Assembly (NCBI GenBank): GCA_003224855.1
Contig: QHZY01000046.1
Location: forward strand, 1-41,709
Length of the DNA: 41,709 bases
Source: Acidobacteriota bacterium
Lineage (GTDB): Bacteria; Acidobacteriota; Terriglobia; Terriglobales; Acidobacteriaceae
Reading direction: 5' to 3'
Both the position numbers and the translations under genes were made by a program. The notes beneath the pieces were generated by a model. It was not told where the DNA came from. It made no database searches and was given only the letters and a program-made list of their open reading frames with translations. Shown here piece after piece: positions 3,009 through 19,436 of this stretch. The first letter of the stretch is position 1, and every line of letters begins with the position of its first letter.

Positions 3009-3056
3009 TTGATCTTAGTATTCGCCTTCGCTATAATGGCGAACAAAAGGCGAATA
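3009..3056 (+). promoter_or_regulatory. Promoter with flanking GGCGAA-type inverted/direct repeats (operator) for the radical SAM gene
   Basis: TTGATC (3009-3014) and a perfect TATAAT (3032-3037) are separated by exactly 17 bases. A perfect 10-base inverted repeat, TATTCGCCTT (3019-3028) and AAGGCGAATA (3047-3056), brackets the -10 box and reaches the Shine-Dalgarno AAGG (3047-3050). A third copy, GGCGAA (3038-3043), lies exactly 11 bases, about one helical turn, before the GGCGAA at 3049-3054. Spacer, -10, start site and ribosome-binding site are thus all inside the repeat field, which is what a tightly repressed gene looks like. The regulator is unknown; a LexA-type damage repressor is a guess. 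Confidence 0.75.
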
Positions 3057-3057
3057 T

Positions 3058-4065
3058 ATGGCTACCCTCCCTTTGTTGCCCCAGCTCACGCCTGAACGGC
3101 CAGGCCCGAAACTCATTGGAATCGCTCGCCTCGCCGCCGATGGCGAATCGGTGCGTCAAGGGCATGAAGTGGAATACTTCACGCTGCCGGCGCGGTCGGT
3201 GCTGAACCGTTGCGTCAGCAAGCGCGAGATGCCGTTTACCTGGACAATCAATCCTTATCGCGGGTGCGAGTTTGCCTGCAAGTACTGTTACGCGCGCTAC
3301 ACGCACGAGTTCATGGAGATGCGCGATGGCATTGCGTTCGAGCAAAAGATCTACATCAAGCAGCATGCGGCGGAGCTGTTGCGGCAGGAACTGCGCCACG
3401 TCAAGCCGGGCGAGGAGATAGCGATCGGGACGGCCACTGATCCGTATCAGCCGGCGGAGAAGCGGTTTGAGGTGACGAAGGGAATTCTGGAGGAGCTGGC
3501 GCGGCACGAAGGGCTGGAGCTGGGGATCATCACGAAATCGAATCTCGTAGTGCGCGACCTGGAGCTGCTGGGCGAGATCAATCGTAAGAACCGCCTGCAT
3601 GTGAGCCTGACGATTACCACCATGGATGCGAAGCTGGCGAGAATCCTGGAGCCGCGCGCTCCCAGGCCCGACTTACGGATGCAGGCTGTGAAGGAGTTGT
3701 CCGCGGCTGGAATCCGCACGGGAATAAGTTGTTCTCCGGTACTGCCGGGAATCACGGATTCGGCGAAGAACCTGGAAGGCGTGGTCAAGTCGGCAGCGGG
3801 TGCAGGAGCGAAGGGGATTTTTGCGAATCCTTTGTTTCTGAAGCCATGCTCGGCGGCGGTGTTCATGCCATTTCTGCAAGAAGAGTTTCCGAAGCTTTAC
3901 GAGGAGTATAGGAAACGATACGAGAAGCACGCGTTTTTGCCGAAGGCTTACCATCAGCGGATTTCGGAGCTAATGAAACGGTTGCGAGAGAAGCACGGTT
4001 TAGGGGAGCGCAGGAGAGCGGATGCGGTTGTGGTGCAGAAGGCACCGCAGATGAGCCTGTTTTGA
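3058..4065 (+). CDS. Radical SAM protein, spore photoproduct lyase-like (Rv2578c/PA0069-type)
   Basis: The 335-residue protein has the radical SAM cluster motif CxxxCxxC as C-E-F-A-C-K-Y-C in NPYRGCEFACKYCYARYTHE (near residues 64-83). Later segments fit a SAM-radical TIM barrel: IAIGTATDPYQPAEK, the ITKSNLVVRD strand and SLTITTMD. This arrangement matches the group distantly related to spore photoproduct lyase SplB and found in non-sporulating bacteria. The reaction of that group is not established. AAGG sits 7 bases before the ATG and is part of the operator arm. It stands alone, with about 70 bases to the M16 pair and its own strong promoter. Mycobacterial relatives have, as I recall without checking, been listed among damage-inducible genes, so a DNA-repair or nucleic-acid role is a reasonable guess only. 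Confidence 0.88.
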   Translation: MATLPLLPQLTPERPGPKLIGIARLAADGESVRQGHEVEYFTLPARSVLNRCVSKREMPFTWTINPYRGCEFACKYCYARYTHEFMEMRDGIAFEQKIYIKQHAAELLRQELRHVKPGEEIAIGTATDPYQPAEKRFEVTKGILEELARHEGLELGIITKSNLVVRDLELLGEINRKNRLHVSLTITTMDAKLARILEPRAPRPDLRMQAVKELSAAGIRTGISCSPVLPGITDSAKNLEGVVKSAAGAGAKGIFANPLFLKPCSAAVFMPFLQEEFPKLYEEYRKRYEKHAFLPKAYHQRISELMKRLREKHGLGERRRADAVVVQKAPQMSLF

Positions 4066-4098: not shown

Positions 4099-4197
4099 AA
4101 AGACTTTAACCATGAAGTAAAATCAACAGCTTTTTACTGCAATGCGCACAAAGGTACTGCCAGGGAGCGCAAAGAATGAGAGGGCGAATGGGTGGTT

Positions 4198-4203
4198 TAT
4201 AAT
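4198..4203 (+). promoter_or_regulatory. -10 box TATAAT of the PP2C phosphatase gene (candidate leaderless promoter)
   Basis: A perfect TATAAT ends 11 bases before the ATG at 4215. No Shine-Dalgarno lies between them, and the usual start-site distance would put the first base of the mRNA within about 5 bases of the start codon. No convincing -35 box is seen. Confidence 0.55.
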
Positions 4204-4214
4204 CGCCATCTCGC

Positions 4215-5414
4215 ATGCCCTTCCAGCCTCCCCGGCCAGCTGAAAATCCAGGCACCTGGGGCGCGGTTCCGCCTGAAGTTGCTCACCGCCGAAAAGGGAT
4301 GATCGCCGGCTTGCAAAGGTTCTGGCAACGAGTGACCGAAGGCCTGGAGATCGATCAGCTGTGGTCGCAGTTCAAGCGCGACGCGCAGAGTAGTTATCGG
4401 CTCTACTCCCGCGATGTGGAAGCCCGCAAGCTGCCCCATACAGGGCGGCACCGGTGGGTGCGCACTCTGCAGGAGTTCGCATGGGCGATTCTTGAAAAAC
4501 TGACGCCCGCGCGCCGGGTGCTGCTGCTGATCGGAATTATTTTCCTGATTTTTCCTGCTGGCGGTTTCAGCTTTCATGGGAAAGCCGGCCAAGTGGAAGT
4601 AGTGGAATTCGACTTCCGCTTCTACGGCGGGCTTCTGCTGCTGATTGTGCTGATTTTGGAAGTTTCCGATCGCGTAGTGATGAAGCGCGACCTGGAAATT
4701 GCTCGCGATATTCAGAACTGGCTGTTGCCCGAGCATCCTCCTGCGATTCCCGGGTTGGCGGTGGCGTTCGCGACCCGTCCCGCGAATACGGTAGCGGGAG
4801 ATTATTACGACACGTTCGCGCGTCCAGGCAGCGAGAATGCGAAATATTTGCTGGCCGTGGCGGATGTAGCGGGAAAGAGTATTCCTGCAGCCATGCTGAT
4901 GGCAACATTCCAGGCAAGTCTGCGAACCCTTTCGGCGGCGCCGGTATCGCTGCTGGAGATCGTGCGCGGCATGAATCAATATGCGTGCAGCAACAGCCAG
5001 AAGGGTGCGCGATTCACGACCGCATTCCTGGCGGAGTTCGATTCGGTCACACGCCAGCTCGATTACATCAACGCGGGACATAATCCACCGGTACTGAGGC
5101 GGGCAAGTGGCGACATTGAACACCTCACCGAAGGCGGATTGCCGCTGGGAATCATGCTCGATCGACCGCATGCTGCCGGGCGATGCGAGTTACAAGCGGG
5201 CGACTGGCTGATGATTTTTACTGACGGGCTGGTGGAGGCGTTGAACTATGCCGAAGCAGAGTATGGAGAAGAGCGCATGCTGGGCGTGCTTCAAAATGCA
5301 GTCTCTGTAACACCGGAAGAGTTGCTGCATCGGGTGATGGTCGACGTGGATTTTTTCGTGGGCGACACGCCGCAGCATGATGACATCACGTTGATGTTGA
5401 TTAAGGCAACGTAA
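4215..5414 (+). CDS. Membrane-anchored RsbU/SpoIIE-type PP2C serine phosphatase
   Basis: The 399-residue protein has a positively charged cytoplasmic N-terminal region (1-100), two membrane helices (about 102-118 and 138-151) and a C-terminal PPM/SpoIIE phosphatase domain (about 160-399). The domain shows the linker EIARDIQNWLLPE, the metal-binding GDYYD (195-199), DVAGKSIPAAMLMA (217-230), AGHNPP, FTDGLVEA and the terminal DDITLMLIK. The metal-coordinating aspartates D196, D217 and the final DD are present, so it should be active. Such enzymes dephosphorylate anti-sigma-factor antagonists in partner-switching cascades. No antagonist or anti-sigma kinase gene is adjacent, so the partner is elsewhere. 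The ATG at 4215 is supported by the TATAAT 11 bases upstream. Confidence 0.92.
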   Translation: MPFQPPRPAENPGTWGAVPPEVAHRRKGMIAGLQRFWQRVTEGLEIDQLWSQFKRDAQSSYRLYSRDVEARKLPHTGRHRWVRTLQEFAWAILEKLTPARRVLLLIGIIFLIFPAGGFSFHGKAGQVEVVEFDFRFYGGLLLLIVLILEVSDRVVMKRDLEIARDIQNWLLPEHPPAIPGLAVAFATRPANTVAGDYYDTFARPGSENAKYLLAVADVAGKSIPAAMLMATFQASLRTLSAAPVSLLEIVRGMNQYACSNSQKGARFTTAFLAEFDSVTRQLDYINAGHNPPVLRRASGDIEHLTEGGLPLGIMLDRPHAAGRCELQAGDWLMIFTDGLVEALNYAEAEYGEERMLGVLQNAVSVTPEELLHRVMVDVDFFVGDTPQHDDITLMLIKAT

Positions 5415-18863: not shown

Positions 18864-18872
18864 TCAGAGTTG

Positions 18873-19436
18873 ATGATTACCAAAGCAGGGCGTCCTGTCG
18901 ATCTGCCGAAAGGCTTCGAATATCGGCAGGATTTTTTGTCGCCAGAAGAAGAACAGGACCTGCTCACCAAGGTTGCCGGGCTCGACTTTCAGCCTTTTGA
19001 ATTCCAGGGGTATATTGCCAAGCGGCGGATTGTTGAATACGGCTATGAGTACGACTTCAGTTCGCGGCGGACAAGTGCAGCCCCGGCAATTCCGGAATTC
19101 CTTAATCCAATTAGGGTGCGAGCGGCAGAATGGGCAGCTGTACGCTCAAACGAAATTGTTGAAGCAGTGATAACCGAGTACATGCCCGGATCGCCGATTG
19201 GCTGGCATCGGGACGTACCTCAGTTTGAGGCAATCATTGGTATTTCGCTCGGCAGCGCCTCGCGAATGCGCTTCAAACCCTACAAGTCGGAAGGGAAGAT
19301 CATCTCAGTTGTTCTCGATCCCCGGTCAGCTTATATGCTACGGGGTATTGCCAGGTGGAATTTTCAGCACAGCATTCCTACGGTCAAAAGGCTAAGGTAT
19401 TCCATTACGTTCAGGACACTAAGAACAAAGAAGTAG
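18873..19436 (+). CDS. AlkB-family 2-oxoglutarate/Fe(II) dioxygenase
   Basis: The ATG at 18873 is preferred to the TTG three bases earlier. The 187-residue protein has the iron ligands H112-R-D114 (PIGWHRDVPQFEAIIGISLG) and H166 (WNFQHSIPTV). The 2-oxoglutarate-binding signature RxNxTxR reads R175-Y-S-I-T-F-R181, with serine in the third position. VEYGYEYDFSSRR resembles the nucleotide-recognition lid of AlkB-like proteins, although substrate lids vary. AlkB enzymes remove alkyl groups from DNA or RNA bases by oxidation. The gene faces ligA tail to tail with only 10 bases between stops. The family call is secure; DNA versus RNA or protein as substrate is open. Confidence 0.9.
   Translation: MITKAGRPVDLPKGFEYRQDFLSPEEEQDLLTKVAGLDFQPFEFQGYIAKRRIVEYGYEYDFSSRRTSAAPAIPEFLNPIRVRAAEWAAVRSNEIVEAVITEYMPGSPIGWHRDVPQFEAIIGISLGSASRMRFKPYKSEGKIISVVLDPRSAYMLRGIARWNFQHSIPTVKRLRYSITFRTLRTKK

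Follow-up and report, generated by a model that had tools for sequence, protein, structure and literature searches.

The window analyzed here, a 41.7-kb stretch of DNA, corresponds to a single contig (G000:C256) of a draft acidobacterial genome (3.74 Mb, 274 contigs). The gene under study encodes a radical SAM protein of 335 aa (3058-4065, plus strand) that is Rv2578c/PA0069-like (COG1533, ‘SplB-like’) based on family matches and fold. The closest named relatives of this gene are found in Acidobacteriaceae/Terriglobia genomes. A pair of M16-family peptidase genes (24-2989), likely forming one operon, ends just 5' of the promoter. Downstream, a SpoIIE/PP2C-type phosphatase gene (4215-5414) is preceded by a separate TATAAT-like promoter (4176-4203), which makes it probable that the radical SAM gene forms a transcript of its own.

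The original prediction, made on the sequence of this region, described a promoter, several TTCGCC/GGCGAA copies and a perfect 10-base inverted repeat, all of which are present. A -35 hexamer TTGATC (3009-3014) and a -10 hexamer TATAAT (3032-3037) are read on the plus strand, separated by 17 bp and matching the consensus at 10 of 12 positions. TTCGCC is located at 3021, TTCGC at 3027 and GGCGAA at 3038-3043 and 3049-3054, whereas the arms of the inverted repeat are TATTCGCCTT (3019-3028) and AAGGCGAATA (3047-3056). A Shine-Dalgarno-like AAAGG (3046-3050, plus strand) overlaps the right arm, as had been proposed.

A conserved direct repeat follows the -10 hexamer

The original prediction interpreted these copies as a three-copy operator wrapped around the promoter. 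The signal that comparison supports is instead a single direct repeat with two copies, GGCGAA-CAAAA-GGCGAA (3038-3054, plus strand), situated 3' of the -10 hexamer, and the TTCGCC arm is not conserved. Its core (3039-3054) reads GCGAACAAAAGGCGAA (TTCGCCTTTTGTTCGC on the minus strand) and comprises two half-sites in the same orientation with an 11-bp period, GCGAA-N6-GCGAA; it is the only match in the window with all ten half-site bases. The conserved element can be written as RGCGAA-NAAAAR-GCGAA, placed immediately 3' of the -10 hexamer.

Upstream of the orthologues, GCGAA-N6-GCGAA was found with 10/10 half-site bases in 26 of 30 cases and with at least 9/10 in 28, so that the second GGCGAA, predicted to lie one helical turn from the first, belongs to a conserved repeat; a good box is missing in two orthologues (L015 and L021). 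In a coding-sequence control, a match of at least 9/10 occurred once in 30. This control was used instead of the reversed pattern, which is inflated in the orthologue scan because it overlaps the motif itself. TTGAC/TTGAT-like hexamers occur 30-40 bp 5' of the box in most orthologues.

A profile of 55 distinct orthologous promoters, RGCGAANAAAARGCGAA, carries its information in columns 0-16, with little in the flanks and near zero at the left arm of the inverted repeat. The score of the half-site columns is partly by construction, as these columns served to choose the boxes. The A's of the core, present in 50, 51, 55 and 47 of the 55 promoters, and the conserved purines at columns 0 and 11 were not used in this choice. 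Among the orthologues, the box lies anywhere between 11 and about 280 bp from the start codon, and the position of the Shine-Dalgarno-like sequence inside the box is hence local to the genome of the window.

The same box precedes SOS genes

The own genome was searched by pattern and by family. The loose pattern GCGAA-N6-GCGAA occurs 23 times in this genome versus 22 times for the control and is too weak alone; the A-rich core is needed in the pattern. With the strict 16-mer pattern GCGAAYAWAARGCGAA, 130 matches were obtained in 61 genomes versus two for the reversed control, an excess of about 65-fold.

In the own genome, strict sites lie in the promoters of recA, imuA and the radical SAM gene, besides one inside the uvrA coding sequence. 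The recA site (C153:15672) is located about 67 bp 5' of the matched start and overlaps the -35 region, and the imuA site (C269:215) is followed by imuB and dnaE2 in an imuA-imuB-dnaE2 operon. The genome encodes a complete LexA, in which both the S24 peptidase domain and the LexA DNA-binding domain are present, and in the promoter of lexA a box, TTCGCTTTCCTTTCGC, occupies the spacer between the -35 hexamer TTGACA and the -10 hexamer. The search for the motif upstream of lexA, recA and imuB/dnaE2 that the original prediction had suggested thus recovers the direct repeat, both in the own genome and in its relatives.

The 125 distinct strict sites include 21 at imuA, 20 at radical SAM genes, 17 at recA and at least 17 at lexA; dinB, SRAP, ruvB and ribonucleotide reductase genes are also among the genes at these sites. 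Simple matching left 42 of the 125 sites in relatives without an SOS-gene assignment, some of which proved to be dinB, SRAP or lexA on inspection.

The box is present in the promoter of 55 out of 59 lexA genes (9 or 10 of 10 half-site bases). Three of the four lexA genes that lack it (G052, G057a and G060) are the only ones with a recognition helix that is not of the SLATVHKH kind. For the fourth (G036), the match begins only at residue 29, and the start of this gene may be misplaced.

The strict site within uvrA (G000:C157:14403-14418, L077) recurs in the relative G036 (L218), spanning codons for LRLLFA. It is probably a coding coincidence that is kept in the relative through its codons, and it was set aside; not every strict match is thus an operator.

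Alternative explanations of the repeat

Three other readings of the region were weighed against a LexA box. The one closest to the original prediction is a palindromic operator (3019-3028/3047-3056) for a dedicated dimeric repressor that would loop over or enclose the promoter. The inverted repeat is indeed perfect and encloses the -10 hexamer. Nevertheless, it occurs at chance frequency: the window holds two perfect 10-bp inverted repeats with a gap of at most 30, versus 1.95 on average in Markov simulations, and TTCGCC-gap-GGCGAA pairs are not enriched genome-wide (25 versus 29 for the reversed control). The left arm is retained in only one of the 55 distinct orthologous promoters, namely that of the window itself, its arms being neither conserved in orthologues nor repeated in the genome, and no regulator gene was found adjoining the radical SAM gene in the neighborhood. 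We consider this operator very improbable, the left arm being probably fortuitous, and rejected the inverted repeat as operator.

The direct repeat could also be a coding or compositional accident without a regulatory role. GGCGAA alone is near its chance frequency in the window (46 versus 41 expected) and as such uninformative, and the uvrA site illustrates that a strict match can arise within a coding sequence. The excess of the strict 16-mer across the 61 genomes and the conservation of the box in promoters whose flanks are not conserved make such an accident the least credible of the readings, with a practically negligible probability. Finally, a damage or stress regulator other than LexA might bind the direct repeat and also happen to govern lexA, recA and imuA; LexA-independent damage regulators exist in several bacteria. 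Against this stand the presence of the box at lexA's own promoter and its absence where the LexA recognition helix changes, as well as a period and core that match the alphaproteobacterial LexA box before the same gene. A regulator of this type is therefore most unlikely.

Because the box is shared with lexA, recA and imuA and the strict motif is in such excess, we propose with high confidence that 3038-3054 serves this acidobacterial lineage as its LexA (SOS) box, through which the gene would be repressed by LexA and induced by damage together with lexA, recA and imuA-imuB-dnaE2. Comparison across genomes supports the existence and conservation of the box, the set of genes that it accompanies and its connection with the recognition helix, and the radical SAM gene almost certainly belongs to the SOS response.

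Comparison with known LexA boxes

Homologues of the radical SAM gene in named genomes are preceded by GTTC-N7-GTTC (e.g. GTTCTTGTTTTGTTC) in most Alphaproteobacteria sampled and by CTGTATA-N-TACAG, of the CTGT-N8-ACAG type, in several Burkholderiales. GTTC-N7-GTTC and CTGT-N8-ACAG are the published LexA boxes of the Alphaproteobacteria and Burkholderiales, respectively (PMC3323433). The alphaproteobacterial box is likewise a direct repeat with an 11-bp period and has the same T-rich core, which in the window reads as A-rich on the plus strand. It too occupies the promoters of lexA, recA and imuA-imuB-dnaE2, and it occurs upstream of the same radical SAM family. On the minus strand, the acidobacterial box reads ATTC-GCC-TTTT-GTTC and is in register with it: compared as ATTC-N7-GTTC, the second tetramer fits and the first differs by one base. 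The acidobacterial half-site (TTCGC-N6-TTCGC on the minus strand) is longer and shifted relative to the alphaproteobacterial one.

A paper by Mazon et al. (2006; doi 10.1099/mic.0.28376-0) reportedly deals with the LexA box of Acidobacterium capsulatum. It is cited in the reference lists of PMC3323433 and PMC7739468. The in-register alignment fits the existence of this paper, and the box at 3038-3054 may be the same as the published A. capsulatum box.

LexA control of splB was predicted in alpha- and betaproteobacteria in 2012 (PMC3323433) and in Bacteroidetes in 2021 (PMC8565304). These genes belong to the same annotation class (COG1533, SplB-like radical SAM) and are under LexA, yet they occur in other phyla and with another LexA box than in Acidobacteriota. 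No report of a LexA-controlled splB in Acidobacteriota was found in the literature examined.

The radical SAM enzyme

The best family matches of the protein, spanning most of its length, are the NCBIfam families rSAM Rv2578c (NF038135) and PA0069 (NF033668), with scores of 266 and 235 bits that are below the curated cut-offs of 430 and 360 bits, respectively. By sequence, no relative turned up in the PDB. By fold, the six top-ranking PDB entries for the predicted structure (mean pLDDT 81) are all spore photoproduct lyase (SPL), at a TM of about 0.57 and about 15% identity. The CX3CX2C motif and the fold are thus common to SPL (PDB 4fhc, 4fhf) and the radical SAM protein.

The hydrogen-donor cysteine of SPL is C140 in the Geobacillus enzyme (4fhc numbering). 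Across 28 orthologues, only the three cysteines of the CX3CX2C [4Fe-4S] motif (C70, C74 and C77; codons within 3265-3288, plus strand) are invariant; judging from these invariant positions, C140 appears to have no conserved counterpart. The label ‘SplB-like’ is fair for fold and regulation, and an identity as spore photoproduct lyase is unsupported, as there is no conserved fourth cysteine.

LexA boxes of three different shapes precede this family, one each in Acidobacteriota, Alphaproteobacteria and Burkholderiales. Given these boxes and an SPL-like fold that lacks the conserved donor cysteine, we tentatively raise the idea, to which we give somewhat less than even weight, that the protein is a repair enzyme of the SOS response that is widespread and independent of light and whose reaction is unlike that of SPL. 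Its lesion would in that case be a general product of damage and not the spore photoproduct.

Proposed regulation and significance

By analogy with the established SOS mechanism, LexA bound at 3038-3054 would cover the expected transcription start just 3' of TATAAT and block RNA polymerase by occlusion, keeping the radical SAM gene off. Upon DNA damage, RecA filaments would trigger self-cleavage of LexA, by which the gene would be switched on jointly with lexA, recA and imuA-imuB-dnaE2. The radical SAM enzyme may then repair or process a DNA lesion via radical chemistry.

The original prediction was partly right: the region that it singled out is truly regulatory and the regulator that it guessed is the right one, on reasoning that was partly wrong. 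Of the inducing stresses it named, DNA damage with LexA-type control is borne out by the box before lexA, recA and imuA, and light finds no support. Nor does the gene stand out by how much control it is under, as it appears to be one unexceptional gene in a regulon that comprises several.

This type of system is already known, and the surprise is modest given that LexA regulation of the same gene family has been reported in other phyla; the acidobacterial case is a new, well supported instance based on sequence comparison. It proposes an SOS box and regulon for a soil phylum that is abundant yet little studied, and the LexA recognition helix and its box are cleanly linked. Moreover, a further large group now has this uncharacterized radical SAM family in its SOS response, a placement that narrows the function of the family to DNA damage and indicates under which conditions its substrate should be sought.

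Additional observations

Elsewhere in the window, an ORF (18870-19436) resembles an AlkB-type dealkylase, as judged by eye; a scan of the window found no LexA-type box directly 5' of it.

At about 9 of 20 loci checked, a LexA-type box precedes DUF5131 genes, either directly (L348 in G006:C21, L351 in G033 and L366 in G011:C35) or 0.7-0.9 kb upstream (about 700-930 bp; L349, L352, L353, L354, L355 and L358). At the loci with a distant box, a gene for a three-Cys-motif partner (TcmP) intervenes first, as seen in L088 and L074. This arrangement suggests that the TcmP-DUF5131 pair belongs to the SOS regulon, and one publication (PMC12445080) reportedly names both TcmP and LexA.

In the distant genome G056, the core of several strict sites (L180, L179 and L046) contains a T, and one of these sites lies in a tandem run, GCGAATATGAAGCGAACATAAAGCGAA; the downstream genes were not recognized as SOS genes. 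In two relatives (L205 and L093), the box is located about 150-180 bp before genes that resemble the replicative helicase gene dnaB.
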